A stretch of DNA of 18,920 bases from Pseudomonadota bacterium (lineage in GTDB: Bacteria; Desulfobacterota; Desulfobacteria; Desulfobacterales; Desulfobacteraceae): positions 1 through 18,920 of the forward strand of contig JAHIVS010000254.1 in the NCBI GenBank assembly GCA_018816605.1, read 5' to 3'. This document shows positions 1-18,920 of this stretch, piece after piece (positions within the stretch are counted from its first letter, which is position 1; every line of letters starts with the position of its first letter). Under the pieces are notes generated by a model that was not told the origin of the DNA, made no database searches, and worked only from the letters and a program-made list of their open reading frames with translations. Position numbers and translations under genes: made by a program.

Positions 1-1068
1 ATCGCCGGTGCCTCTTTGGGCATCATGGGCGGACCTTTCGGCCTGGTACAGAAGGCGTTTTCCGGCAGCAATTCCATCACCTGCCATTCATGGGGGGGGT
101 CCACCTCCGAAGCCCTGAGAAAATTTGCCTTTGATCCTTTTACCAAGGAAAGCGGCATCAAGGTGATTGATGCCGCCTTTACCGGCATGGATGCCTTCTT
201 AACCCAGGTAAAGGCCTCCTATCCGCCCGGGGGAGAATTTAATATTGCCCATCTGAGTGCGGTTTATGATTATGCCCGGTATACGGATCTGGGCTTTGGC
301 GTGGTTCTGGACGAAACCCAGATTCCCAATTTGAAAAATGTCATGACCAAAATGACCGATACCCTGAGGGGCATTTCCAATGGAACCTTGTCCGCCGTCC
401 CCTATGATCTGGGTCAGACCGGCATTGCCTATAACACCCAAAAAATTTCCAAGGCAGATGCCGAGAAACTGGGTGCTTCCCTGCTGTTTGATAAAAATCT
501 GAAGGGCAAGCTGGGATCCTGGGGGGGTGATTTCAGAACCAATATGTGGTATGCGGCCCTGCACACCGGACAGAGTCCCAACAATATCACGGATGAAAAG
601 GCTGTCTGGGAAGCCTTGAAAGAGCAGCGGGGACTGATCAAAAAATACTGGGCATCGGGATCTGAGCTCATGAGCCTTCTGGGCAATGGCGAGATCTATG
701 CCACCGTGGCATGGTCCGGCCGGGTTGCGGCCCTCCAGAAACAAGGGCATCCCATAGGGTATCTGGCGCCCGACGGCACCTATTCATGGATGGAATACAT
801 GTATGTTCTCAAGGGAACCGATCTTGCGGTGGCCCAGAATTTACTGAATTTCATGCTGGAGCCAGAAGCGGCCATAGCGGTTGCCCTGGGACAGAATTAT
901 CCGACCAGTCTGGATCCCACAAAGGTTGACATGCCCGATGCGGTCAAACAATTGCCCGCCTTTGACCCGACAGGCAAGCTGAACGGATACCTGTTTGCAG
1001 ATCCGGCCTATTGGAACGGTCACCAGCTGGATTGGTCTGAAAAATGGGATAGGGTAATGGCCGGCTGA
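1..1068 (+). CDS. ABC transporter periplasmic solute-binding protein, PotD-like (5' end missing)
   Basis: The reading frame is open from the first base, so the true start lies outside the window; an internal ATG at 16 is not a convincing start. The first visible residues (AGASLGIMGGPFGLV) look like the hydrophobic core of a Sec or Tat export signal, followed by the mature protein. The rest resembles the spermidine/putrescine-binding family (extracellular solute-binding family 1/PotD): an early CHSWGG segment, the YDLGQTGIAYNT segment typical of PotD-like proteins, and a C-terminal part with LLNFMLEPEAA and NYPTS. It probably delivers a polyamine-like or other cationic small molecule to an ABC importer. 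The ATPase follows after 66 bases; permease genes are not in the window and presumably lie upstream. The substrate is inferred from family resemblance only. Confidence 0.82.
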   Translation: MAGASLGIMGGPFGLVQKAFSGSNSITCHSWGGSTSEALRKFAFDPFTKESGIKVIDAAFTGMDAFLTQVKASYPPGGEFNIAHLSAVYDYARYTDLGFGVVLDETQIPNLKNVMTKMTDTLRGISNGTLSAVPYDLGQTGIAYNTQKISKADAEKLGASLLFDKNLKGKLGSWGGDFRTNMWYAALHTGQSPNNITDEKAVWEALKEQRGLIKKYWASGSELMSLLGNGEIYATVAWSGRVAALQKQGHPIGYLAPDGTYSWMEYMYVLKGTDLAVAQNLLNFMLEPEAAIAVALGQNYPTSLDPTKVDMPDAVKQLPAFDPTGKLNGYLFADPAYWNGHQLDWSEKWDRVMAG

Positions 1069-1134: not shown

Positions 1135-2250
1135 ATGGGGAGACATAACGGTTTGGGAAAAGAACGAGACCCGGCATTTGTAAGGTTTGCGGGCATTGAA
1201 AAACACTATGGAAAGGTGGTTGCGGTTAAACGCATGGATTTGGAAATCCCCGAAGGCTCTCTGGTGACCCTGCTGGGGCCGTCCGGCTGCGGAAAAACCA
1301 CCCTGCTACGGATGCTGGCGGGGCTGGAAACACCCACCCAGGGCGATATCTATATACGGGACAAGCGAATCAACGATACCCCTATCCATAAAAGGAATCT
1401 GGGCATGATTTTTCAGAATTATGCCCTGTTTCCCCATAAAACCATTTTTGAAAACATCGCCTTTGGCCTGAAATACAGGGGAGTTTCAAAGACAGATATG
1501 CACAAAAAGGTTGAAAAGGCCCTGGAAACCGTACGGCTACCCAAGGTGGGAAACCGGATGCCTTCCCAGCTGTCCGGCGGCCAACAACAGCGGATCGCCC
1601 TGGCCCGGGCCATTGTCATCGAGCCGGATGTGCTGCTCATGGATGAACCCCTGTCGGCACTGGACGAAAACTTGAGGGAGGATATGCGCCGGGAAATCGA
1701 TAACCTCCAACAGCAGCTGGGGGTTACCACCATTTTTGTGACCCATGACCAACGGGAAGCCCTTTCCATGTCCGACAAGGTTGTGGTCATGAAGGACGGG
1801 TTTATTCAGCAGCAGGGAACCCCGGAAGAGGTGTACAATAATTCGGCCAACCATTTTGTGGCCGATTTTCTAGGGCATTCCAACTTCATGGATGCCGTGG
1901 TTGGAGAGAGGAAATCACCGTTTCTTGAAGTCCGGCTTTCGGACAACACCCTTTGCCTGGTAAGTCCGGCAGAAGAATTTCCAGCCGGAGCCAAAGCCGA
2001 AATCGTGATTCGCGCCCAGAAGATGACCCTGGGCTATAAAACAGATTTCACCAGGCAAGACGGAATGAACTATTTTTTCGGCAAAATAGTGGACCGCAGT
2101 TATATGGGCGGAGAGGTCAGTTATTTTGTGGAACTTGCCCAGGGGCAGGTCCTGCATGTGATTAATTTTGTGAAACGGTCTCCCTATCGTCGGGGAGATG
2201 AGGTCTATATACAGGTGGACCCGTTTCATTGCAGATTATTGAAATCCTAA
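1135..2250 (+). CDS. PotA-like ABC transporter ATP-binding protein with TOBE_2 domain
   Basis: This 371-residue cytoplasmic ATPase of the spermidine/putrescine/iron-type ABC importer family has all motifs intact: Walker A GPSGCGKTT at residues 48-56, Q-loop IFQNYALFPH near 92-101, signature LSGGQQQR at 146-153, Walker B VLLMDEP at 166-172, the D-loop SALDENLRE, and the switch histidine in TIFVTHD. Residues from about 235 on form a TOBE_2-type C-terminal domain (VIRAQKM, then DRSYMGGEVSYFV). Length is normal for PotA proteins. The ATG at 1135 has a weak ribosome binding site; an in-frame TTG at 1153 is preceded by GGGGAGA and could be the real start. Its 3' end overlaps the next ORF by 22 bases. 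It should energise import by the upstream solute-binding protein. The family assignment is secure; the substrate is not. Confidence 0.92.
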   Translation: MGRHNGLGKERDPAFVRFAGIEKHYGKVVAVKRMDLEIPEGSLVTLLGPSGCGKTTLLRMLAGLETPTQGDIYIRDKRINDTPIHKRNLGMIFQNYALFPHKTIFENIAFGLKYRGVSKTDMHKKVEKALETVRLPKVGNRMPSQLSGGQQQRIALARAIVIEPDVLLMDEPLSALDENLREDMRREIDNLQQQLGVTTIFVTHDQREALSMSDKVVVMKDGFIQQQGTPEEVYNNSANHFVADFLGHSNFMDAVVGERKSPFLEVRLSDNTLCLVSPAEEFPAGAKAEIVIRAQKMTLGYKTDFTRQDGMNYFFGKIVDRSYMGGEVSYFVELAQGQVLHVINFVKRSPYRRGDEVYIQVDPFHCRLLKS

Positions 2251-2597
2251 GAAGTGCCATCACCGTTGTGACAGATTTTTTTCATCCGGTCCCGAAACAC
2301 CAGAGTTTTTTACAGGTCAAGCAGACCCTTGATCCGTCTGCCAGCTATATTGTTTTTGAAAATGCGTTAAACGCCCGGGAGGGCTCCATATTTGATCCGG
2401 CCCACATGGCCTATGCCTATCTTGAAAAAGAAAAATTTGTTTGGCAGCAGGTGATCGATATGGAGGTCTCCAGGGAATATCTTGTGATCCGTATCCCCAT
2501 CGGCCAGGAAGACAAGCTGCTTGCCAAGGCAATGGGATGGGGATTTTCCGAAAATACCATTTGTTATATATTCAAGGCGAAAGAGGTGCGAAAGTGA
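2229..2597 (+). CDS. Unrecognised 122-residue protein in ABC/KamA operon
   Basis: I do not recognise this protein. It is 122 residues from a TTG start that overlaps the end of the ABC ATPase gene; an AGGTGG sequence about ten bases upstream supports the TTG. A GTG at 2268 is the alternative start. Its stop overlaps the GTG start of the radical SAM gene (GTGA), so the three genes are probably translationally coupled. There is no signal peptide, no clear transmembrane segment and no cysteine pair. Near the C-terminus are strand-rich segments (YLVIRIPIG, then NTICYIFKA) that suggest a small alpha/beta fold. The coding frame is supported by the exact overlaps at both ends and by the absence of a better gene in this gap. 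A regulatory or accessory role for the transporter or for the enzyme that follows is possible but unproven. Confidence 0.65.
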   Translation: MQIIEILRSAITVVTDFFHPVPKHQSFLQVKQTLDPSASYIVFENALNAREGSIFDPAHMAYAYLEKEKFVWQQVIDMEVSREYLVIRIPIGQEDKLLAKAMGWGFSENTICYIFKAKEVRK

Positions 2598-5089
2598 AAC
2601 AGAGTACAGATCCCATCCTGGAAATCCGGTTTGAACATTCAAAATTTCAGGCAGAGGTTCCCTTGTCCCGGCTGACCTCCGGGCTGACGGATTTTCTGGA
2701 AACCTATGGCAATGAACAATTTTGCGGTGGAGCCTTTGCCCAGGTTATTGGAAACAAAGACGGGCAGACAAAACTTGCCCGCCTTTTAAAAGCCGCAGGC
2801 CACCCCGAAGATCCCAAGGGGTTTTTAGAAGCGGTCCTGGAGGCCATTGCAGGTTCCCGGGGCGGGCATCCGGTCCTAAACCGGGACGCAGATCCGGTGG
2901 AACTGCCTTCCAGGCTGCTGGTGGCGCTTCTGGAACACGTAATCCCGGGGCATGGCTATGTGTCCATCAAAGACACACACCAGCTGGAGCAGGTGACCAA
3001 CCTGGATATCCCGGAAGATCAGCGGTCCGATTTGCAGCGTGTGATCGAAAAATACCCGGTCCGCCTTTCCCGGCACACCATCCGACAGATGATGGTTTCC
3101 AGGGATGTGGCCTATCAGTATATGCCCTTTGTGGAAGAACTGGAGTCCGTAGGCCATACCAACACCTGGATCGGCCAGTTCCATGACGGGCTTCTGGAAC
3201 AGATGTACCAGAACCGGGTAATTTTTCTGCTCAACATGAGCTGCCCTGTCTATTGCCGGTTTTGTTTCAGAAAGCACAAAGATGCCAGGAACGAAAAAAA
3301 TCCCACTCCCCAGGGGGTTGCGGCAGCGGTCGCCCATGTCAGAAATTCTCCGTTGATCAAGGAAATCGTTGTCACGGGCGGAGATCCCTTCATGAACCGT
3401 GACAATATGGCTGCCACCATTGACGGGCTCATGACCATTCCCCATGTTCAGACCCTGCGTCTTGCCACCCGGTCCATTGCCTATTACCCGGATCTGTTTC
3501 TGGAAAAGGAATCTGCCTATCTGAAATATTTACAGCAGAAAAGCCTGGAACTCCAGCAGCATGGCAAGCGCATGGAAGTGGCCACCCATTTTATCCACCC
3601 GGATGAGGTGAGCCCCGAAAGCCTGGAGATCATTTCAGACCTGGTCAAAAGCGGTATTGCCGTTTATATCCAGACCCCTTTCTTAAGCGATTGCAATGAT
3701 ACAGGACCCGAACTGGTTAAACTCTTCGGCCTGCTGCGCGGCGCCGGTGCCGAGCTGCATTATATTTACATTCCCTGCAGCCCCATCCATGGAAATTCCA
3801 TTTATTGGAAGCCCTTGTCCGACGGGATTCATATGGCCCTGCATCTTCGGGCCCATTTGTCCGACCGGGCCATTCCCAGGATCTGTACCGCCACCCCCAT
3901 CGGGAAAATGGACTGGTATACCAGCGGCTGGGCTGTTGAACAGGTCTCGGACAATGAAAATTTTATCTGGATCAGGACCCCTTATACACCGGAATATTTT
4001 AAAAATTTTGCCCCCCTTGCCAATGAATTGAGCAATATCCGGATCAATGCCGAAGGCACCATCGATATCCAGTACATGGCAAAAATCGGGGACGCGGCCT
4101 GTTTGATCGGCAACCGCCCCACAAAGAAAGCGCCCAAAAATCCTGTGGCCGAAAAAGCAGATATTGACCGGTTGAAACAAAAACTGGCCGCCGTTTGCCA
4201 GACCGGGGTTTCCATTGTGAATACCGGCATACCGGGGCTGTCCCGGCTCCATGAAACCCGGGTTCAGATCAATGCCAAGGCAGGAGAGCGGCATCTGGCC
4301 TATATCATGGCAGACCCCAGGATTTCCGATGTGGTGATCGCACCGGATACGGATGGAGGCGCAGCCGTTGATGCCGTTGATGCCCTGTACGATATCACCC
4401 GGATCATGGGGCTTTTAAGGGCCATTCCCCATGTTACGGCGGTACGGCTGCGTTCCGTGAAGCTTTCAAATAACCCGGCATCCTATACCCGGGCTGTGAT
4501 CAACCGGTTGGGAGACTTGAACCATTTGTCCGTGGTCAATCCCCTTCGCCTTGAGATTGAAACCTGGTTTGTAACGGCCCAGGAGGTGGATGGCGATCAT
4601 GCTAAACTTGTCAGGCGGCTCAACAACAAGGGAATCACGGTCTATGCCAATGTTCCCCTGCTGGGCGGGGTGAATGACACGGATATGGCCATCCATGGGT
4701 TGGCCCATGGGCTGCGGACGGTGGGTATCGAATTCCACCATCTCTATGTGGCAGGCCTTCCCGTCCAGGATCAGTGGAACGATACCCATCCCATTGATTC
4801 CTTTGATGTCATTGATATTGCCACACGGGTTCGGCGGGAGGGGTCCGGGAGACAGATCCCCAGGTATATTATTTTAACGGCCCTGGGCGAGGTGGATTAC
4901 GGACTTACCAGCAAATTTATAAGCGATGGCAAGTCTCTGAAAATAAAACTTGGCTGTTACGATGAATCCTATTATAAAACCATGGATGAAAATTTTGTAT
5001 TTCCGGAAAATGTTGAAACCTGCGGGGCCGGAAACCCTGTGGTAAGTGTTTCCGGCCTGATAAAAACCAATGATTTTCCCGTTTCCTAA
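2594..5089 (+). CDS. KamA-family radical SAM protein with a second, degenerate KamA-like barrel
   Basis: This 831-residue protein starts at a GTG preceded by GAGGTG five bases away. Residues about 200-450 are a lysine 2,3-aminomutase (KamA/EpmB-like) radical SAM barrel: CPVYCRFC gives the CxxxCxxC cluster (C217, C221, C224), VVTGGDP (259-265) is the SAM-binding motif, and K438 in TPIGKMDW sits where KamA enzymes carry the PLP lysine. Usual KamA length is about 400-450 residues. Residues about 545-780 repeat the barrel at a near-constant offset of 322-328: DVVIAPD aligns with EIVVTGG, NVPLLGGVNDT with QTPFLSDCNDT, and IPRYIILTALGEV with IPRICTATPIGKM. The second copy lacks about 26 residues covering the cysteines and has Glu766 in place of the PLP lysine. 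The first half should catalyse 1,2-amino migration or a related radical reaction on an amino acid. The second half looks catalytically dead. The substrate is unknown. Confidence 0.9.
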   Translation: MKQSTDPILEIRFEHSKFQAEVPLSRLTSGLTDFLETYGNEQFCGGAFAQVIGNKDGQTKLARLLKAAGHPEDPKGFLEAVLEAIAGSRGGHPVLNRDADPVELPSRLLVALLEHVIPGHGYVSIKDTHQLEQVTNLDIPEDQRSDLQRVIEKYPVRLSRHTIRQMMVSRDVAYQYMPFVEELESVGHTNTWIGQFHDGLLEQMYQNRVIFLLNMSCPVYCRFCFRKHKDARNEKNPTPQGVAAAVAHVRNSPLIKEIVVTGGDPFMNRDNMAATIDGLMTIPHVQTLRLATRSIAYYPDLFLEKESAYLKYLQQKSLELQQHGKRMEVATHFIHPDEVSPESLEIISDLVKSGIAVYIQTPFLSDCNDTGPELVKLFGLLRGAGAELHYIYIPCSPIHGNSIYWKPLSDGIHMALHLRAHLSDRAIPRICTATPIGKMDWYTSGWAVEQVSDNENFIWIRTPYTPEYFKNFAPLANELSNIRINAEGTIDIQYMAKIGDAACLIGNRPTKKAPKNPVAEKADIDRLKQKLAAVCQTGVSIVNTGIPGLSRLHETRVQINAKAGERHLAYIMADPRISDVVIAPDTDGGAAVDAVDALYDITRIMGLLRAIPHVTAVRLRSVKLSNNPASYTRAVINRLGDLNHLSVVNPLRLEIETWFVTAQEVDGDHAKLVRRLNNKGITVYANVPLLGGVNDTDMAIHGLAHGLRTVGIEFHHLYVAGLPVQDQWNDTHPIDSFDVIDIATRVRREGSGRQIPRYIILTALGEVDYGLTSKFISDGKSLKIKLGCYDESYYKTMDENFVFPENVETCGAGNPVVSVSGLIKTNDFPVS

Positions 5090-8658: not shown

Positions 8659-9338
8659 CTCCCATCCCCAAACGGTACTCCCCCCATGGAAAAAGGCAGA
8701 ATTGCAAAAACCCACCACCCGGATAGGGGGCACATGATTTCATCTGGGGTCAGATATCGAGAACACAAAACCGGAAACACGGTATCAAGGCAGATCCATA
8801 GTTTTCCATTTGATGTCAGAAGTATAACCCATTTCTTCTGGTCTAAGAATACCCGGAAAGGCAGGATCAAATATTAGAAACATATGGGGTTCCTTGTCCG
8901 GAAATCAAAATTTAGAAATCTGCGACCGGTTTGATGGGAATGATGGCATGGCCTGTCCCGCTTGCCGAAAGGGCACCCTGGTAACGCGGCTTGTGATTGA
9001 CGGGTATGGGAATATTGTGATGGATGCCTTATCAGATCCGGTCATCGAGCAGGAACCTAAGGCAGTTGATTCTTCATAAAAGGGTTTACTTTGAATAAAT
9101 TTGCATATAACTGGTTTAGAATAAAATAATCAGGGCCAGGTGCCTTCAAATGAAGAATTTATCACAATTGCTGTGAACAAGTTCAGGCCAAAAGGCAATA
9201 AAGTGAAGGGCAAACAAGGATACCAAGTCCGTATTTTCCACTTAACTTAACGTTTTAATGCAGCAATAAGTTCGAATGGTCGTTTGGCGGCATTTTTTTG
9301 GGGCACAAAAAAGAAACAAAGCAATCCGGACCTTATAA
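8659..9338. other. Long gene-poor interval
   Basis: These 680 bases between the SLC13 hairpin and the HD-GYP gene hold little that I can support. A 63-codon ORF at 8686-8877 has no family resemblance or ribosome binding site. A small Cys-motif ORF is listed separately. The last 250 bases are A+T-rich; weak -35/-10-like pairs such as TTGCAT (9101) and TAAAAT (9122) at 15-base spacing could be a promoter for the HD-GYP gene, but the match is poor. Confidence 0.5.
8894..9079 (+). CDS. Doubtful 61-residue ORF with CPAC motif
   Basis: This short ORF would start at a TTG; no ATG is available before residue 19 and the ribosome binding site is poor. It contains one CPACRKGTL motif, the form seen in half of a zinc ribbon, followed by strand-like TRLVIDGYGNIVMDAL. 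A second cysteine pair is missing, so it would not bind zinc as a monomer. It could be a small genuine protein, a remnant of a longer zinc-ribbon protein, or chance. Its base composition resembles neighbouring coding DNA, which is the main reason to list it. Confidence 0.3.
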   Translation: MSGNQNLEICDRFDGNDGMACPACRKGTLVTRLVIDGYGNIVMDALSDPVIEQEPKAVDSS

Positions 9339-10112
9339 ATGAATGAACAAAACCGATTAATCCAGATTATCAAAGAGATCGCAGAGGGCAATTATTCCAA
9401 TGATATCATGCCCTTTACCCGGCCTGAATGCCCGGAACATATCAGAGAAATTGCCGAAGCCATTGGTATGATGATGGTTAAGCTGGAGGCCAGGGAGCTT
9501 CGGCTTGAGCAGCTAAATGAGGCACTAAGGGAAAATACCCTGAAAACGATCGCCTCCGCCACAAAGGCCATGGCTGCAAGGGATACATATACCAGGGGAC
9601 ACGGAAACCGGGTGGCAGCCTATGCTGTCCGGCTGGGCCGCAGGATGGGCCTTGACAACACCGCTCTTAAAGAGGTGGAAACAGCGGGTTTACTCCATGA
9701 TATTGGAAAAATCGGGTTTACAGACAAGGTGTTCAACAACCAGGACATTACCCCTGATTCTGAAATCCTGGCTGAAATCCGCCAGCACCCGGAAACCGGG
9801 GTTGAGATTTTAAAAGACCTTGATTTCCTGGGACCTGTGCTGGAATACATCCACTCCCACCACGAACATCTGAACGGCCAGGGCTATCCCAGGGGGCTGT
9901 CAGAAGAAGAGATCCCTTTGGGGGCCCGGATCATCAGTGTTGCAGACTGCTTTGACGCCATCACCACAGACCGGGCATACCAAAAAGGCAAATCCAGGGA
10001 TGAAGGATTTCAGATACTCAAAATTCTTGGCACGGCACAACTGGATGCAGACCTTGTGGAGGCCTTTATTAACGATGTCAGAGAAAACGGTATGGAAGAA
10101 TCGGCTCTCTGA
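9339..10112 (+). CDS. HD-GYP domain protein, probable cyclic-di-GMP phosphodiesterase
   Basis: This 257-residue protein has no transmembrane segment and is probably cytoplasmic. Residues about 70-250 form an HD-GYP domain with every hallmark: H88 in RGHGNR, the HD pair H120/D121 in LLHDIGKIG, H150, the HH pair in HSHHEHLNG near 174-175, GQGYP at 181-184, and D203 in SVADCFDAITTDRAY. HD-GYP proteins hydrolyse cyclic di-GMP (some act on other cyclic dinucleotides) with a di- or tri-iron centre. The N-terminal 65 residues (EIAEGNYSNDIMPFTRPE, then REIAEAIGMMMVKLEARE) look like a helical linker of the kind preceding signalling outputs in these bacteria, not a complete sensor domain. The ATG start has no strong ribosome binding site. 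No obvious partner lies next to it. Confidence 0.9.
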   Translation: MNEQNRLIQIIKEIAEGNYSNDIMPFTRPECPEHIREIAEAIGMMMVKLEARELRLEQLNEALRENTLKTIASATKAMAARDTYTRGHGNRVAAYAVRLGRRMGLDNTALKEVETAGLLHDIGKIGFTDKVFNNQDITPDSEILAEIRQHPETGVEILKDLDFLGPVLEYIHSHHEHLNGQGYPRGLSEEEIPLGARIISVADCFDAITTDRAYQKGKSRDEGFQILKILGTAQLDADLVEAFINDVRENGMEESAL

Positions 10113-10215
10113 TCTTATTCTCTCCCAAGACGGGTAATGGCTTCTTAAGTTGACCCCATTTCTTATTTCGGCCATCATATACCGCATGAAATCCCCTGAG
10201 CAGAGAAGCGGAAAA

Positions 10216-10502
10216 ATGACCAGAATTGAAGATCAAAATGAAAACACATCCCAAGATTTTCTGGAAGCTGAATTAAAAGAGACCCGGGTCAGGCTTGAAG
10301 ACAGTCAGGTCCGATTCTCTTTTTAACCGAACAGACCCTGCTGCCCATTGTAACCTTCCAGGAAGACAAGGAGGTCTATGCAAACCAGGCCTTTCCAGGC
10401 CGGATGGGTGGATCACTACTTATCGAGCGTCCGGTTCAAGGGGAAACCAGCCAATATGGCCTGTATGAAGACTCGGCCCTTTTTAATCGTTTCTCCAAAT
10501 GA
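10216..10502 (+). pseudogene. Frameshifted and truncated PAS-domain fragment
   Basis: An ORF from the ATG at 10216 (an in-frame ATG at 10186 is possible) encodes a coiled-coil-like start ending RLEDSQVRFSF and stops at 10326. The adjacent frame continues seamlessly with LTEQTLLPIVTFQEDKEVY and then ANQAF, which is a typical opening of a PAS sensor domain. Adding one T in the T run at 10320-10324 would join the two frames, so a one-base deletion is the simplest explanation. Homology to PAS ends soon after ANQAF at about 10405 and the frame stops at 10502. The rest of the sensor protein is absent. The fragment abuts a MazF remnant. It is a decayed sensor kinase or regulator gene. Confidence 0.65.
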
Positions 10503-10701
10503 AATGAATCTAAATATAGGCACCGGAATTGTTGTTCCGATGACAACCAAAGGACGAAACTACCCAACAAGGGTCCTGTCTTCTTTTCAAGACAAGAAAG
10601 GCCAAGTCGTCCTTGATCAAATCCGAACAATTGATAAACTCGGCTTGGCTCGGTGCCCTATGAACTGCCAACAATTCCAACAATTTAAATGCGGACGTTA
10701 A
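10438..10701 (+). pseudogene. MazF/PemK-type toxin remnant, N-terminus missing
   Basis: In the frame running to the stop at 10701, residues KTRPFLIVSPNEMN, IGTGIVVPMTTKGRNYPTRV and KGQVVLDQIRTIDK match the central and C-terminal core of MazF/PemK endoribonucleases. Intact MazF proteins (about 110 residues) begin with a strand and a loop of roughly 25 residues before this point, with a motif such as VxLVxLDPTxGxE. Here that part is replaced by unrelated sequence running back into the PAS fragment. The last 20 codons after TIDK also look unlike the family. No MazE-type antitoxin gene is seen. It is probably inactive. A 107-residue ORF starting at the ATG at 10378 would span this region, but its first 25 codons read the PAS fragment in another frame. 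Confidence 0.7.
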
Positions 10702-10852
10702 AAAAACCGCAGAGTTTAATTGTTCACAGCGACTAGGTCGATCAGCACCGAGTTGTGCTTTTTAGCGGTGGAAACAGAAATGGAGAATCGTTGTCTGGAA
10801 TTAAAAAAATCAGATTCGCTGCAACAGATATAATTTATCAAAGGAAACTAAA

Positions 10853-11191
10853 ATGAGTATGCACATGCAATTGACGGTTAAAGTAAACCCTTACTATGAA
10901 AAAAGTCTGGAAGGAACTTATTCTAAGCTGGGACGCTGTTTAAGACATATAGATGAAGATTTAGCGAGCCGAAATCCCTCCCTTTATGAATTGGCAGGAC
11001 AAGTGGACCTGCTTCTTTACCGCTTCGATGGGACTCAACTCAGAGATGTGTTACTTCCATACAAAGACAAGCTTAGGGATATACACAATGCGATTCAAGA
11101 GAATATAGCTGTCTGGAACCTGGCTCAGGCTGACAAGCTTTTATACAGCCTTGAGGATATATTTGATGCAATAGAATCAAACTTGGCTTAA
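10853..11191 (+). CDS. Orphan small helical protein
   Basis: I do not recognise this 112-residue protein. The ATG has an AAAGGA ribosome binding site about nine bases upstream, better than most in this region. The sequence is almost entirely amphipathic helix, for example ELAGQVDLLLYRFDG, QLRDVLLPYKDKL and DKLLYSLEDIFDAIE, with no cysteine motif, signal peptide or membrane segment. Small four-helix adaptor proteins look like this, but no function can be named. The gene is visibly richer in A+T and in codons such as TTA and ATA than its neighbours. It stands between a toxin remnant and the 3' end of a tRNA gene. Horizontal acquisition is a reasonable inference. Confidence 0.6.
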   Translation: MSMHMQLTVKVNPYYEKSLEGTYSKLGRCLRHIDEDLASRNPSLYELAGQVDLLLYRFDGTQLRDVLLPYKDKLRDIHNAIQENIAVWNLAQADKLLYSLEDIFDAIESNLA

Positions 11192-13312: not shown

Positions 13313-14005
13313 ATGCGTCTTGAGTGTAATGGTCTGAAATATACATATCCGGAATCCGAGGTTGCGGTCATTGACAATCTGTGTTTTTCCATGGCAGGGC
13401 CCGGATTCAACGCCGTCTTCGGGCCGTCCGGAGTGGGGAAAACCTCCCTGGCAAAGCTTTTGGTCAGTCAGAAAGACCGGCCGGACAGCCGGATACTAGC
13501 ACCCGGTATGGAGACCATCCTGTATTCCTACAACCAGGAACGGCTGCCGGGCTGGTCCAGCACCGGGAGTCATCTGGACAGGGTGTGTCCTGCCGGCAAG
13601 AAGAAGCTGAAACAAGACCTCATTGAAATCTTCAGGCTGGCTCCGGTTCTGGAGGCCCGTTTTGCACAGCTGTCCATGGGCCAGCAGAACCGCATGAACC
13701 TCATCCGCTACCTGCTCCAGGAATTTGACCTGCTGATCATGGACGAGAGCCTGGCAAATGTGGATGAGGCTTTGCGGGAAACCATTATTCTGGCGGTTAA
13801 AGCATTTTTTCCGGGAAAAATGTTTCTCTATATCTCCCACAATCTCATGGAAGTGGCCAAGTTCTGTAAGGAGATCCTTGTGTTGAGCGAGCCTGTCAAA
13901 CAAAAGGGAAGTTTCATGGTGAAAGGCAGGGATTATTGCCAGGGGTATACCCTGGACAAAAAGTCCTTTGATGCCACCATGCTGGAGATCATGGATGCTT
14001 TTTAG
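13313..14005 (+). CDS. ABC transporter ATP-binding protein, NitT/TauT/ThiY-type system
   Basis: This 230-residue cytoplasmic ATPase starts at an ATG with GGAG about nine bases upstream. Walker A is GPSGVGKTS at 37-45, Walker B is DLLIMDE at 139-145, and the switch histidine is H176 in YISHN. Several elements differ from textbook forms. The signature reads LSMGQ (120-124) in place of LSGGQ, the Q-loop region is SYNQERLPGW, and the D-loop is ANVDE. These differences occur in the short ATPases paired with NMT1/ThiY-like binding proteins. The gene overlaps the permease by 11 bases. Together with the next two genes it forms a complete importer. The substrate cannot be read from the ATPase. Confidence 0.88.
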   Translation: MRLECNGLKYTYPESEVAVIDNLCFSMAGPGFNAVFGPSGVGKTSLAKLLVSQKDRPDSRILAPGMETILYSYNQERLPGWSSTGSHLDRVCPAGKKKLKQDLIEIFRLAPVLEARFAQLSMGQQNRMNLIRYLLQEFDLLIMDESLANVDEALRETIILAVKAFFPGKMFLYISHNLMEVAKFCKEILVLSEPVKQKGSFMVKGRDYCQGYTLDKKSFDATMLEIMDAF

Positions 14006-14762
14006 ACGCATATATCAATTTTTGATCGTCTATTGCCTTTGCCTGGTCGGCCTCTTGGGCATTAAGCAGGTGCTGGGTCTTTCCGATTATGTGATTCCCG
14101 GCGTCACCCTGATTCATTCGACCTTTGGCCGGGTTTCGGGCGGCTATTTTTTGGATGTCTTGAATACCCTGTCCGTGACCATTTTCGGCCAGATCATCTC
14201 CATTGCCATGGCGTTTACCGTGGGGATCCTGGGCCGCAAATCCTCCTGGGCAGGCTCTTTTATCAAGGTGATGGCCTATAATATCCAGGCCTACCCCATT
14301 GTGGCCCTGGCCCCGATTATTTTTATCCTTCTGGGAGATGGGTTTATCTCCCGGCTTCTCATTGCCTCCATGATCTGTTATTTCCCGCTCCTGCTGTCGG
14401 TCCTGGGGGTGATGGCCGTGCCGGTAAAGGATATCGAACATTTTTATATTGCCACGGGAAGGATGCGGTGGCAATTGGAGGTTAAGATCCGGGCTTTTGA
14501 AAATTTAAGCAAACTGACCACGGTCATTGCCGGGAGTGCCACCCTGGCCATGGCAGGGACCATCGTGGCAGAATTCATTGCCGCCAATGCCGGTATCGGG
14601 TATAGTATCCGCATTGCCCTTTACCAGAGCGATTTGGCCGGGATTCTTACGGCCCTGTTTTATATCGGGATCATTATCTCCGTTTACCAGGGGATGCTTG
14701 AGACCCTGGGGGAACTGGTAAAAACAAAGTGGTCTGCCCCAAAGGGAGGGGAGTTGTTATGA
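13995..14762 (+). CDS. ABC transporter permease, NitT/TauT/ThiX-type (BPD_transp_1)
   Basis: This 255-residue inner-membrane protein starts at the ATG at 13995, inside the end of the ATPase gene. An upstream in-frame alternative is less likely because it adds an unrelated tail. It has about six hydrophobic segments, including an N-terminal FLIVYCLCLVGLLGI and later PIVALAPIIFILLGDG. The cytoplasmic coupling loop follows at IATGRMRWQLEVKIRAFENL, and the motif AEFIAANAGIGYSI is typical of NitT/TauT/SsuC permeases. The stop overlaps the start of the binding-protein gene (ATGA), indicating translational coupling. Confidence 0.9.
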   Translation: MLFRRIYQFLIVYCLCLVGLLGIKQVLGLSDYVIPGVTLIHSTFGRVSGGYFLDVLNTLSVTIFGQIISIAMAFTVGILGRKSSWAGSFIKVMAYNIQAYPIVALAPIIFILLGDGFISRLLIASMICYFPLLLSVLGVMAVPVKDIEHFYIATGRMRWQLEVKIRAFENLSKLTTVIAGSATLAMAGTIVAEFIAANAGIGYSIRIALYQSDLAGILTALFYIGIIISVYQGMLETLGELVKTKWSAPKGGELL

Positions 14763-15760
14763 GCGTCAAGCCATGGGAGTTTCGGCAATGGCCGGTGGTG
14801 ATACTGGTCATTTTTGTTCTTTTTTGTGTTTCGCCTGTCCGGGCCGGGGCCATCAAAGTGAATTATCGTCTCAAATGGCTGTTCAACACCAGCGTGGCCG
14901 GGGACATCCTGGCTGTGGACCAGGGATATTTCAAGACAGCCGGGCTGGATGTGACCGTCAAGGAGGGCAGCCCTGAAAAAAATGCCATCAATGAATTGGA
15001 GCTGGGATATGCCGATTTTGGGGTGGCCTCGGCTGACCAGGTGATCCGGGCCCTGGACAAGGGGGCGGACGTGGTGGTTCTGGCCCAGCTTTTCCAGGTC
15101 AACCCCATGCAATGGATTTACCGGGCGGACCGGCCTGAGATTAAAGTGCTTGGGGATTTGAAGGGCCGGCATATCGGCATTACCTTTGGGGGCAATGATG
15201 AAACCATCATGCGAACCCTTCTGGCCCTTGCCGGGCTCGGCGAAAAAGATGTCCGACTGTCCGGGGTGCGGTTTGACTTTACCCCGTTTTTGAAAAAAAA
15301 GGTGGATGTCTGGCCGGTATACAAAAATTCCCAGGGTGTGATCCTTGCGGATCAATTGAGCAGGGAAGGCGAGGCGGTCTATTTTTTCAATCCATCCCAG
15401 TTCGGGGTGAATTTTGTGGCCAACTCCATTGTGACCTCTGGCAAACTGATGAAAACCCACCCCGAACGGGTAAAAATTTTTTTAAAATCCTTGCTTTCCG
15501 CATGGGAAGCGGCCATGGATCCTGTCAATGCGGCACAGGTTTTGGCTGCAGTAAAAAAAAAAGACAGTCAAACCCCGGATGATATTCAGCAAAAGCAATT
15601 GGCTGCCACCAGACAATTGATCAAGCCCGATAAGGGCATCCGGATCGGCGTCTTTGATGTTGGGGCCTGGAAGCAGACAGAAACCATCCTGTTGAATGAA
15701 CATCAGATTAAAGGACCTGTGGGCATCGCCTCCCGCTTGATCGCCCAGGAACGCTTATAG
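14759..15760 (+). CDS. ABC transporter substrate-binding protein, NMT1/THI5-like
   Basis: The ATG at 14759 overlaps the permease stop. The 333-residue product begins with a clear Sec signal peptide: basic residues, hydrophobic VVILVIFVLFCVS, and a probable cleavage after PVRA or PVRAGA. The mature part has the NMT1/THI5 fold signatures LKWLFNTSVAGDILAVDQGY, then GLDVTVKEG, YADFGVASADQ and a GGNDE loop near ITFGGNDETIM. This family binds HMP pyrimidine (ThiY), riboflavin or other small planar or anionic compounds. There are no thiamine biosynthesis genes or TPP riboswitch nearby, so thiamine-precursor uptake is only one possibility. An aminotransferase gene follows after 12 bases. Confidence 0.88.
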   Translation: MSVKPWEFRQWPVVILVIFVLFCVSPVRAGAIKVNYRLKWLFNTSVAGDILAVDQGYFKTAGLDVTVKEGSPEKNAINELELGYADFGVASADQVIRALDKGADVVVLAQLFQVNPMQWIYRADRPEIKVLGDLKGRHIGITFGGNDETIMRTLLALAGLGEKDVRLSGVRFDFTPFLKKKVDVWPVYKNSQGVILADQLSREGEAVYFFNPSQFGVNFVANSIVTSGKLMKTHPERVKIFLKSLLSAWEAAMDPVNAAQVLAAVKKKDSQTPDDIQQKQLAATRQLIKPDKGIRIGVFDVGAWKQTETILLNEHQIKGPVGIASRLIAQERL

Positions 15761-15772
15761 AGGGGAAATTTT

Positions 15773-16966
15773 TTGGAAAATCTTCAATTACCCCAGCTCC
15801 GGCTTGCACCGGATATGATTCATTTGGGGGTGGGCCAGCCCAGCCCCTTCCTGCTGCCGGTAAATCAATTGGAAACGGCCGCGGCCCAGGCATTGGGCTG
15901 TGGTGAAGGGTTTTTTCTCGCCTATGGGGAAACCCGGGGAAATCACAATTTCAGAGAGTCGCTGGCAGAGTTTTTAACCGGCCAATATGCACAGGCGGAT
16001 CAGAGCCACCGTGGGGTCGCTCCTGATCAGCTGCTCATTACCAATGGAAACTCCCAGGCCCTGGACCTGATCTGCACCCTGTTTTCAAAACCCGGAGATA
16101 CGGTGCTGGTGGAGGAACCCAGCTATTTTCTGGCCCTTAAGATCTTTGCCGATCATCATTTGAACCTGGTTCCGGTCCCTGTGGATGAAAACGGGCTTGT
16201 GACAAAGGTATTGGAAGAAATGCTTGAAACCCTGTCCCCGGCGTTTTTGTACACCATTCCCTTTTATCAGAATCCGTCGGGTGTTACCCTTTCCATTCAA
16301 AGAAGACAGGAGCTGGCGCGGATATCTGCCTGCAAAGATTTGCTGGTGGTGGCAGATGAGGTCTACCATTTTCTCAATTATACCGACACGCCACCGCCGT
16401 CCCTGGGGGCGTATGAATCCCAATTCCCCGTGATTACCCTGGGCTCCTTTTCAAAAATTCTGGCCCCGGGGTTGCGGCTGGGGTGGATTTACACAAGCAC
16501 CGACCGGCTGAAAACCATCTCCCGCTCAGGTCTGCTGCAGAGCGGGGGCGGGCTTAATCCGTTTACCTCCGAGATTGTCAGCCGGGTGATCCAAAAGGGG
16601 GTTCTTTCGGCACATATCCATAATTTAAAACAGGTTTACGCCCACAGGGCAGGGGTTTTATACCGGCACTTACGGGCGGGGCTGCCGGAAACCGTCACGT
16701 TTCAGGACCCCCGAGGCGGTTATTTTATCTGGCTTAAATTTCCCGACAAAATTGATGCCATTGCCTTGAGGAAAGCCGCCCAGGCCCGGAACGTGGATTT
16801 TTACCCCGGCAGTCTTTTTTCCTGTTCACAAGGGTTGAAGTCCCATCTGAGACTGTGTTTTGCCTTTTATGGGGAGGATCTATTGATTGAAGGGGTCAAC
16901 CGGCTGGTCCGGTGTGTTGAGCAGTCCCATCCCGACCTTTTTTTGGGGGGCCGGCCCCGGATCTGA
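15773..16966 (+). CDS. PLP-dependent class I/II aminotransferase
   Basis: This 397-residue cytoplasmic enzyme starts at a TTG preceded by AGGGGA at seven-base spacing. It is a fold-type I aminotransferase of the MocR/2-aminoadipate (LysN/ARO8-like) subgroup. LLITNGNSQALDLICTLF and VLVEEPSYFLAL lie in the N-terminal half, YTIPFYQNPSGVTLS holds the conserved asparagine, VADEVYHFLNY the conserved Asp/Tyr, and SFSKILAPGLRLGW the PLP-binding lysine. The RLCFAFYGEDL segment near the end contains the carboxylate-binding arginine. It transfers an amino group between an amino acid and a 2-oxo acid; the substrate is unknown. There is no DNA-binding domain, so it is not a MocR regulator. Its position 12 bases behind an ABC importer suggests it acts on the imported compound or on a product of it. 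Confidence 0.9.
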   Translation: MENLQLPQLRLAPDMIHLGVGQPSPFLLPVNQLETAAAQALGCGEGFFLAYGETRGNHNFRESLAEFLTGQYAQADQSHRGVAPDQLLITNGNSQALDLICTLFSKPGDTVLVEEPSYFLALKIFADHHLNLVPVPVDENGLVTKVLEEMLETLSPAFLYTIPFYQNPSGVTLSIQRRQELARISACKDLLVVADEVYHFLNYTDTPPPSLGAYESQFPVITLGSFSKILAPGLRLGWIYTSTDRLKTISRSGLLQSGGGLNPFTSEIVSRVIQKGVLSAHIHNLKQVYAHRAGVLYRHLRAGLPETVTFQDPRGGYFIWLKFPDKIDAIALRKAAQARNVDFYPGSLFSCSQGLKSHLRLCFAFYGEDLLIEGVNRLVRCVEQSHPDLFLGGRPRI

Positions 16967-16999: not shown

Positions 17000-18133
17000 T
17001 TAAGGCTGTTTGGCGGTGAGAAGCCGCTTGTTTTTCTTTTTTTCAAGGTAATACTGCAACACCGGCTCAAGATACCTGTCAATTTCAGGCAGGGCAATCC
17101 CACCTGCTGCTGCTATCCGGCGGGTCCGGGTGTTGATAAAATGCTGGGGCATTTTAAGATAGGCCAGGAAAAACGGCAGGGTGTTCAACGACCTTCTTGC
17201 CTGTTTGGAAGCCCCCCACTTGATAAGGGCCACGCACAGCCGATACACGGATATGGGTATCCGTTTGCTTTTGGGCAGGGTGCGCCCGTTTTTCAGATAA
17301 ATTTTACGGACCCTTTCCGAAAGCGGGTTCAGCCCGATGCTTCCTGCCGGTCCTGCGCAGGCATGGAGGACCCGGGGCAGGCCCTGGTCCTGGCAGCTGG
17401 CCCAGTAAATCAGATCGGCAACATAATCAGAGGGGACCACATCCAGATACATCCCGCCCAGGTCCGGAAGAAAGCCCAATGTAGCACTTCCGCTCAAAAA
17501 TTCGCACAGATAGTAAAATACCTGGAAACGGATATTTTTACCGGTGGAAGAATCTCCCACAACCATGCTGGGCCGATGCACCGTGATGTTCAGGCCCTGT
17601 GTTATTTTTTCCCGGAGATAGGTTTCTGCACAGGCCTTGGCCGCCTCATATGAATTGCGGAACACCCGCAGGTCATCTGTGATCCATTTTTCACGGATGC
17701 CATTGGGTGTATACCCGGCAACGCCCACGGTGGAGACATATTCCATTTTTTTTACATGGTGGCCCCTTTCCATCAGGGAGACGATATTTTTTGTCATTGC
17801 CATGGTCTGTTGCCGGGCAATTTCTTCTGGAAGGCCCATGGTCACATTTCCGGCACAATGGAGGATATGGGTCACCCGGCAAAGCAGCATCTGATATTGA
17901 TCAGGGGCCAGGGCAAACCCGGTCTGGTAAAGGTCTGCCTTTATGGGGCAAACCCTTGATCTGGGCTGGTCCGGCAGTTCACAATAGGCGAGCAGCGCCT
18001 TGAATCGCTCTGTTAAATGGGTTTGTGAATCCGCTCGGATCAGAAGGGTTACTCGCTGGCCGCTTTTTATCAGGCGCCGGAACACAGCACTCCCGACAAC
18101 ACCCGTGGCACCGGTAAGAAGGTAGTGTTTCAT
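17000..18133 (-). CDS. Extended SDR, thioester-reductase-like NAD(P)-dependent oxidoreductase
   Basis: This 377-residue protein starts at the ATG whose first base is 18133, with AGGAGAG about seven bases upstream; longer in-frame extensions would overlap the ligase gene. It has an N-terminal Rossmann motif LLTGATGVVGSAV (glycines 8, 11, 14), ILHCAGNVT near 90-98, EYVSTVGVAG with catalytic S134 or T135, and NSYEAAKACAE with Y162 and K166. HRPSMVVGDSSTG follows. This is the NAD_binding_4/thioester reductase branch of extended SDRs, which reduce carrier- or CoA-bound acyl groups to aldehydes or alcohols, or modify related lipids. The AMP-forming ligase gene ends four bases before it, so the pair probably works on the same acyl substrate. 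A plain epimerase/dehydratase function is the main alternative. Confidence 0.82.
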   Translation of the reverse strand: MKHYLLTGATGVVGSAVFRRLIKSGQRVTLLIRADSQTHLTERFKALLAYCELPDQPRSRVCPIKADLYQTGFALAPDQYQMLLCRVTHILHCAGNVTMGLPEEIARQQTMAMTKNIVSLMERGHHVKKMEYVSTVGVAGYTPNGIREKWITDDLRVFRNSYEAAKACAETYLREKITQGLNITVHRPSMVVGDSSTGKNIRFQVFYYLCEFLSGSATLGFLPDLGGMYLDVVPSDYVADLIYWASCQDQGLPRVLHACAGPAGSIGLNPLSERVRKIYLKNGRTLPKSKRIPISVYRLCVALIKWGASKQARRSLNTLPFFLAYLKMPQHFINTRTRRIAAAGGIALPEIDRYLEPVLQYYLEKKKNKRLLTAKQP

Positions 18134-18137
18134 GGGA

Positions 18138-18920
18138 TCACTCTCCTTTGTGCAGCGCGTCAAATTGGGTGCGATAGGCATCCAGGACATGGTTGCGCCG
18201 GACTTTAAAATTTTGCGTCAGCTCTCCTGTTTCCACGGAAAAAGGAGTGTGGGTAACCCCAAAGGCAACCGGCCTGAAGTGGGCGGGCAGTTTCTGGGTA
18301 ACCCGGTCAATTTCCTGCCGGATAAAATGTCGAATCCCTTGTTCAGAGCCGTGAAAAAAAACCAGCTTCTGCCAGGCGTCAAGGGAAATGGCCAACAGGG
18401 CAACGATGTATTTATGTCGGTCCCCATCAATTACGGCATGGTCCACAGCCCTGATCCGGGTTAACCTGGATTCAATCACCTGGGGGGATATCCTGCGGCC
18501 GGTTGATAGCTTGAATTCATCTGATTTTCTTCCGGTCAGCCGTAAATATCCGTTTTCATCAATGGCTCCGGCATCCCCTGTTTTAAGATACCCGTCATGC
18601 GTCAGGGCCACTCCTTTCCGGGCCACCCCGATCCCTTTTACCAGCACCTCTCCGTTCCCGGCTATTTTGACGGTATTCTGGGGCAATGGTTTGCCGACGC
18701 TTCCCAGTTGATATGCCTTGAGGGTATTCATGCTCACGGGGATGATGTTTTCACTTACCCCGTAGGATTCCAATATCCGCCAGCCCCCTGCGTGAAATTT
18801 TTCCAAAAGGCTGCAGGAAAGGGGGGCGGAACCGCTGATGAAAAAACGAAGGTTTTTACCAAAAAGCGTCCGGGGTCCCGGGATGGGATGTCCCACGGTT
18901 TGACCGGAGAGCGTCTCATA
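18138..18920 (-). CDS. AMP-dependent acyl-CoA synthetase/ligase, C-terminal part (5' end missing)
   Basis: The frame is open to the window edge, so only about the last 260 residues are seen. They include the ANL-superfamily motifs GSAPLS, ESYGVSEN (motif A5, usually YGxTE), YLKTGDAGAIDENGYLRLTG with the adenylate-binding Asp, GRKSDEFKLSTGRRISP at the hinge, and LTQNFKVRR with the catalytic lysine of motif A10. The style is closest to long-chain acyl-CoA synthetases (FadD15-like). These activate a fatty or other carboxylic acid to an acyl-adenylate and then to a thioester. The reductase gene starts four bases downstream on the same strand. Confidence 0.88.
   Translation of the reverse strand, partial: YETLSGQTVGHPIPGPRTLFGKNLRFFISGSAPLSCSLLEKFHAGGWRILESYGVSENIIPVSMNTLKAYQLGSVGKPLPQNTVKIAGNGEVLVKGIGVARKGVALTHDGYLKTGDAGAIDENGYLRLTGRKSDEFKLSTGRRISPQVIESRLTRIRAVDHAVIDGDRHKYIVALLAISLDAWQKLVFFHGSEQGIRHFIRQEIDRVTQKLPAHFRPVAFGVTHTPFSVETGELTQNFKVRRNHVLDAYRTQFDALHKGE

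Follow-up and report, generated by a model that had tools for sequence, protein, structure and literature searches.

Two-barrel relatives of lysine 2,3-aminomutase in Desulfobacteraceae carry an active-looking barrel and a homologous barrel without the cluster loop

Introduction

Enzymes of the KamA type, to which lysine 2,3-aminomutase (LAM) belongs, are homo-oligomers, and two radical S-adenosylmethionine (SAM) barrels in one chain occur in FO synthase, a CofG-CofH fusion in which both barrels have clusters and are catalytic. Here we report the analysis of an 18,920-nucleotide stretch of Desulfobacteraceae DNA (contig JAHIVS010000254.1 of assembly GCA_018816605.1; hereafter the window), in which a single gene encodes a chain of two LAM-like barrels. 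Both halves clearly have the LAM fold, and the first retains the residues of LAM chemistry. A literature search found no description of a two-barrel aminomutase in the portions of open-licence papers that it covered. The best overall explanation, which we hold at a little better than even, is that the protein is a two-barrel relative of LAM and KamA in which the N half is a radical aminomutase and the C half a ligand-binding partner.

Results

Two homologous barrels in one chain

The halves were compared using 54 full-length sequences, 36 from group A and 18 from group B, the groups being set by a score limit (over versus under 1000 bits); frames outside 740-930 residues, frames with masked letters and identical copies were left out. 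Compared as profiles, the N and C halves align over 262 columns with 24% identity; the probability is 99.8, the E-value 3.6e-28 and the score 195.4, compared with 10.7-21.5 for 20 column-shuffled C-half controls. The N-terminal domain (residues 1-199) gave probabilities of 0.1-0.2 against either half. All three residue pairs by which an earlier note, made from the sequence alone, had recognised the repeat (I258/V580, Q360/N686 and K438/E766) are present in this alignment. A fourth pair proposed there, R208/R556, fared unevenly: the profile-profile alignment starts at C221 and pairs R232 with R556, whereas an alignment of 69 barrels (18 N barrels, 18 C barrels and 33 KamA proteins) does pair R208 with R556, which fits the predicted positions of strands 1 and 2 in the structure models.

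The earlier note had also placed a deletion of about 26 residues in the second half, exactly where the first half carries its cluster cysteines, and both parts of this claim hold. In the models, the first residues of strands 1 and 2 are predicted to lie 49 positions apart in the N barrel (208 and 257) and 23 apart in the C barrel (556 and 579), and the columns of C217, C221 and C224 are gaps in all 18 C barrels. The R226 column is likewise a gap in 18 of 18, and the GG(D/E) stretch is gone. At the position of the lysine that in LAM-type enzymes would bind pyridoxal 5'-phosphate (PLP), the reported change to glutamate was borne out over the 54 sequences (Table 1), the column reading glutamate in 16 and aspartate in two of the 18 aligned C barrels.

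The C half is predicted by structure modelling to form a LAM-like barrel, and its matches in profile searches are to KamA/LAM models, with TIGR04368 as its best match (5.6e-12) and TIGR00238 also found (2.7e-11). As a radical SAM domain the C half has the barrel fold, lacks the cluster cysteines and gives no Pfam match. These results support the description of the protein as an active-looking barrel of LAM type and, after it, a homologous barrel that lacks the cluster loop and the PLP lysine; neither of the two refuting checks proposed in the earlier note, on fold and on profile placement, overturned it. The full model matches one LAM chain over the range 108..828, which might suggest that the C-terminal tail rests on the N barrel; this was not used as evidence, since such ranges are end points only and other rows also span both barrels. 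An alternative, longer frame begins at 2441; most aligned homologues begin at the 2594 start or a few residues off.

Table 1. Coordinates of the features discussed, as positions in the window
Feature	Position	Strand	Basis or remark
Periplasmic binding protein, polyamine (PotD/PotF) type	16..1068	+	5' end may be cut by window
ATP-binding cassette (ABC) transporter ATPase, PotA type	1135..2250	+	profile matches
Small protein	2229..2597	+	stop codon overlaps start of double-barrel gene
Double-barrel radical SAM protein	2594..5089	+	open frame, GTG start, 831 residues
Extra N-terminal domain, residues 1-104	2594..2905	+	no family match
N-terminal domain as in LAM/KamA, residues 120-199	2951..3190	+	4 of 6 KamA-type NCBIfam matches begin at residue 124-125
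Active-looking N barrel of radical SAM and PLP type, residues 200-505	3191..4108	+	profile matches, fold match, alignment
CxxxCxxC motif (C217, C221, C224)	3242..3265	+	identical in 54 of 54 sequences
K438	3905..3907	+	matches the lysine kept in KamA proteins; invariant in the family (54 of 54)
Linker, residues 506-544, one helix	4109..4225	+	structure models
C barrel and tail (cluster loop and PLP lysine absent), residues 545-831	4226..5086	+	alignments, models
E766, at place of PLP lysine	4889..4891	+	E 50, D 3, gap 1 (n = 54)
M23-type metallohydrolase, 220 residues	5111..5773	+	zinc motifs HLGLD and HTHLQ present
Class I aminotransferase	15773..16966	+	profile match

The N barrel

C217, C221, C224, R208, R226, H332, Q360 and K438 are invariant over the 54 sequences. 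Among the 33 KamA proteins compared, the K438 column holds lysine in 32 and the R226 column arginine in all 33; we take these columns to be the PLP lysine and the carboxylate-binding arginine of LAM. Two further columns, presumably those of the aspartates that hold the epsilon-amino group of lysine in LAM, differ: the S396 position is serine in 12 and histidine in six of 18 N barrels versus aspartate in 22 of 33 KamA proteins, and the A433 position is alanine in 18 of 18 versus aspartate in 24 of 33, so that no N barrel has the aspartate pair expected of LAM. Because K438, R226 and the other residues of this set are kept while both aspartates are replaced, the N half looks competent and selective for a substrate other than lysine.

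The N half carries the cluster motif, matches the radical SAM fold and reaches 33.6 bits with Pfam PF04055 (cut-off 29.5). The label 'KamA family' given in the earlier note proved too loose. Although the conserved lysine stands at the PLP position, the match to the family model TIGR00238 stops at 152.7 bits against a curated cut-off of 199.2, the chain has two barrels and 831 residues where KamA proteins have a single barrel and ~350-450 residues, and in the tree the N barrels are a clade of their own, distinct from the 33 KamA proteins. Scores also fall short of the cut-offs of the models for individual enzymes, namely TIGR03820 (lysine 2,3-aminomutase, AblA; 150.1 bits, cut-off 525.4), TIGR04368 (glutamate 2,3-aminomutase; 140.9, cut-off 650), TIGR04468 (arginine 2,3-aminomutase; 137.1, cut-off 600) and TIGR03821 (EpmB; 122.2, cut-off 369.3).

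Judged by the residues kept and by the chemistry of LAM, a LAM-type reaction is the most likely one for the N barrel. The N half (approximately residues 120-505) would hold a [4Fe-4S] cluster and SAM through C217, C221 and C224 and PLP on K438, and would move the alpha-amino group of an imported amino acid to the beta carbon by the LAM radical route: SAM would be cleaved at the cluster, a hydrogen abstracted from the beta carbon of the PLP-bound amino acid, the nitrogen moved via an azacyclopropyl radical, and the hydrogen returned. The substrate would be an alpha-amino acid, since R226 is kept, but probably not lysine, since both epsilon-amino aspartates are replaced.

It is improbable, in our estimation, that the N barrel is a PLP radical enzyme other than an aminomutase of free amino acids, acting in protein modification as EpmB does or in some other PLP radical reaction. 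The scores far under every equivalog cut-off of the aminomutase models and the two side-chain columns unlike those of most KamA proteins compared would suit such an enzyme. However, the EpmB model is itself missed by a wide gap, the operon resembles one for small-molecule uptake and breakdown, and the arginine through which LAM binds the carboxylate of its free amino acid, here R226, never changes, although R226 alone cannot separate the aminomutase from an EpmB-like case because arginine is found there in all the KamA proteins compared.

The C barrel

Within group A, the N barrels share a mean identity of 85.0% and the C barrels one of 66.6%; residues 5-104, at 44.7% within clade A, have the lowest value of the four parts measured. 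The greater variability of the C barrel and its longer branches in the tree are what would be expected of an inert relic, or of a scaffold keeping the N barrel soluble or correctly paired. We nevertheless regard this as improbable too, because the C half has 32 columns with at least 98% identity across the 54 sequences, many of them polar, including R618, E654, N686, H715, H716, Q725, R747, R753 and Y758. The term 'degenerate', which the earlier note applied to the second barrel, is right in that the radical and PLP parts are lost and misleading in that the C barrel retains near-invariant residues of its own. These conserved polar residues argue that the C barrel probably does more than fill space, and they would fit a ligand pocket. 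Some C-half residues are kept in KamA proteins as well (n = 33), the R618 column being arginine in 33, N694 asparagine in 31, P756 proline in 29 and G765 glycine in 31.

C-half polar residues conserved at 95% or more lie near strand ends at 13 of 25 positions versus 51 of 211 other positions (p = 0.005, a value to be read as a guide only, with a strand list taken from the C-half model and a single definition of 'near'). Such a pattern, together with the near-invariance of the nine residues from R618 to Y758 and their persistence while parts of the N-barrel pocket differ between groups, would also be expected of a bifunctional enzyme in which the C barrel is a second, non-radical site, for example a lyase or hydrolase acting via E654, H715, H716 and E766, that handles the N-barrel product or prepares its substrate. 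We consider this possible but unlikely: the C half matches no NCBIfam family outside KamA/LAM and none in Pfam at E <= 10, no catalytic motif was recognised in it, and E766 is replaced by aspartate in three of the 54 sequences. An equally tentative standing is given to the corresponding view of the whole chain as a doubled radical aminomutase, a two-step enzyme with a radical half and a non-radical site sharing a common substrate or product. Catalysis of a second step by the C barrel is less likely than ligand binding.

In the explanation that we favour, an aminomutase with a ligand-binding partner, the C half would be a copy of the barrel in which the LAM manner of binding cluster and PLP has been lost. 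It would serve as a built-in partner replacing the second subunit, the fusion of an inactivated copy giving a fixed one-site pair, and its conserved polar residues would bind a small ligand, most likely substrate, product or effector.

Distribution, pieces and phylogeny

The two-barrel architecture is real and conserved. A protein search, which admitted only candidates of 0.55-1.75 times the query length and thereby favoured full-length rows, scored 7992 candidates, of which 1012 reached E <= 0.001. The best 120 of these 1012, query included, have 799-933 residues and 96-100% query coverage, and the 119 further homologues among them are 64-88% identical to the query. Those matches listed with an organism are mostly from Desulfobacteraceae or Desulfobacterales and also from Candidatus Vecturithrix; partial-sequence matches occur in Spirochaetia, Caldithrix, Clostridia and Acidobacteriota as well. 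Within the family of Desulfospira, 60 of 86 genomes have a match at E <= 1e-20, and 52 of the 86 have the two-barrel family (2.2e-71 or better); the remaining eight have single-barrel KamA matches, one of them with a short end piece in addition. Among 395 genomes across the phylum, a match at E <= 1e-40 was found solely in the centre genome of the sample, and KamA proteins of any kind were found in 25 of 39 genomes at E <= 1e-30, including the centre genome with its two-barrel proteins.

The numerous shorter pieces in the databases (208 with a match) might raise the suspicion of an artefact confined to one genome, such as a misassembly, a frameshift or a fusion by chance. This is already contradicted and can practically be dismissed, as the best 120 of 1012 rows are full-length and come from many separate contigs, and many genomes have full-length frames without inner stops. 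When the C-half alignment was used as the query, 172 proteins matched at E <= 0.001; among the best 120 of them, identity to the C half of the window is 46-81%, and many are marked partial or come from short contigs. The C-half matches are taken for pieces of the two-barrel family, and a separate family of C-barrel genes is not favoured. Inner ends of pieces fall in residues 480-550 more often than expected, in 16 of 67 cases versus 6.2 (p = 0.0003) for 50 hand-picked pieces on contigs over ~9.6 kb (P0274, P0301 and P0325 included) and in 54 of 239 cases versus 22.0 over all 208 pieces; this excess is biased by half-length queries and by local alignments that stop in poorly conserved stretches. 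Two pairs of an N-half and a C-half piece, P0251/P0210 and P0258/P0217, lie on equal-sized contigs and are broken in the linker, which may reflect a frameshift, an assembly fault or a true two-chain form. A third pair on equal-sized contigs, P0275/P0177, is broken inside the N barrel. Elsewhere, a 3142-residue frame in L072 (1974-11402) is an artefact of a masked stretch and no giant protein.

In an unrooted tree of the 69 barrels, the N barrels, the C barrels and the KamA proteins form three supported clades. As far as can be judged from a tree into which 18 of the 54 full-length sequences were entered, whose bootstrap was not quite settled and which has several long branches, this shows the doubling to be apparently older than the split of the sampled sequences. 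The absence of a root means that the tree does not distinguish an internal duplication from a fusion of two relatives. Group A is one clade; eight of the ten group B sequences entered group together, L085 branches as the sister of A, and L075 is placed by itself. The KamA sequences, among them one fragment and six long forms, were taken from the phylum of Desulfospira. Proteins L043, L044, L045, L105, L106 and L112 are KamA proteins of ~520-660 residues with a long N-terminal extension before the barrel; the two extensions tested, those of L044 and L045, have no Pfam match.

Genomic context

The small protein encoded upstream gave no Pfam or NCBIfam match at E <= 0.1, and translational coupling of its gene with the two-barrel gene is likely. 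Among 28 related loci, 25 of the 27 that include upstream sequence have this small gene there, and 23 of the 24 that extend past the two-barrel gene have the M23 gene downstream; PotA genes were found in 25 and binding protein genes in 22 of the 28, loci that were too short being counted as misses. The binding protein of the window resembles several polyamine and opine binders. Zinc motifs are kept in all 22 M23 sequences caught by the pattern in the 28 loci and the window, the genes of L004 and L018 having escaped it. The M23 protein matches the middle part of model PRK06148 (1.5e-32), which we take to be a kinase-M23-aminotransferase fusion, and an orthologue of the aminotransferase of the window directly follows the M23 gene in five of 28 relatives (L011, L016, L018, L019 and L020; partial in L018 and L019). 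By eye, the M23-type hydrolase of the window has no signal peptide.

In 16 upstream regions from group A genomes, several of them belonging to the genomes of the 28 related loci, a gene of the proline racemase family and an amidohydrolase gene each occur in 15. Both cysteine motifs of the racemase-family gene are found in 14 of 16 loci, the gene in L122 and L135 having escaped the pattern. A regulator in L020 resembles PrdR (345.8 bits, cut-off 795) and permeases resemble PotB and PotC, all below their cut-offs. The operon reads as one for the uptake and stepwise breakdown of an amino compound. In the clade of the window, it would be a catabolic operon in which an amino compound is imported via a polyamine-type ABC transporter and processed with a racemase-family enzyme, an amidohydrolase and an M23-type hydrolase; a polyamine, a proline or hydroxyproline derivative and an opine-like compound were considered as the imported compound, none being preferred.

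Other genes near these loci were recorded as side observations. A second ABC transporter, of SsuA type, lies beside the aminotransferase gene of the window (13313-16966), with orthologues directly after the M23 gene in L010, and a minus-strand pair at 17000-18896 looks by eye like genes for a reductase and an AMP-forming ligase. Close to the two-barrel operon of L010, at 9086-11017, are a LAM-like gene with a single barrel and an epimerase that resembles a histidine racemase. A threo-3-hydroxyaspartate ammonia-lyase above cut-off is encoded in L123 (4005-4952), divergent from the racemase-family gene, and L130 and L137 have frames similar to it by eye.

Paralogues of the two-barrel protein exist inside and outside the operon. 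L085 adjoins the transporter operon in opposite orientation. L037-L040 and L073-L091 without L085 have two-barrel proteins outside the transporter operon, some lacking the C-terminal tail, and several lie, by eye, near helix-turn-helix regulator or efflux-pump-like genes.

Discussion

Several observations weigh against an aminomutase with a ligand-binding C barrel. Conserved polar positions of the C barrel lie away from strand ends in 12 of 25 cases, and the conservation at strand ends would fit a second catalytic site as well. Group B varies at C-half positions R652, A720, W728 and Y769, and at R556 in two of its 18 sequences. Leaving L085 aside, group B has operon genes at none of 22 loci, which represent 18 distinct genes and in part have short flanks, so that the operon is uninformative on a common role of the C barrel. 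The cluster loop of the N barrel is poorly modelled, with predicted local distance difference test (pLDDT) values under 50 at residues 180-204 and 218-232, and no biochemical data on the two-barrel family were found.

The family offers a rare chance to ask what use is made of a radical SAM barrel after the loss of cluster and cofactor. This question is directly testable, because active and dead copies stand in one chain and dozens of sequences, paralogues and Desulfospira joergensenii (a DSM strain) are available. Should the C half of the family be a sensor or a second active site, this would be a new use of the radical SAM fold. The family has a further point of interest. It is, in addition, a marker of a conserved operon for an amino compound in sulfate-reducing bacteria.

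Among known systems, lysine 2,3-aminomutase (KamA/AblA; 2a5h) has the same barrel fold, the CxxxCxxC motif, the lysine at the PLP position and the carboxylate arginine, but it has one barrel in a 416-residue chain where the present protein has two, and its epsilon-amino aspartates are replaced here. A like type of reaction would be expected of the glutamate and arginine 2,3-aminomutases. EpmB, the enzyme of elongation factor P (EF-P) beta-lysylation, shares the barrel type and would share the cofactors, whereas the two-barrel gene sits in a small-molecule operon. FO synthase is alike in having two radical SAM barrels in one chain; in contrast, the second barrel of the two-barrel aminomutase relative has lost its cluster loop.
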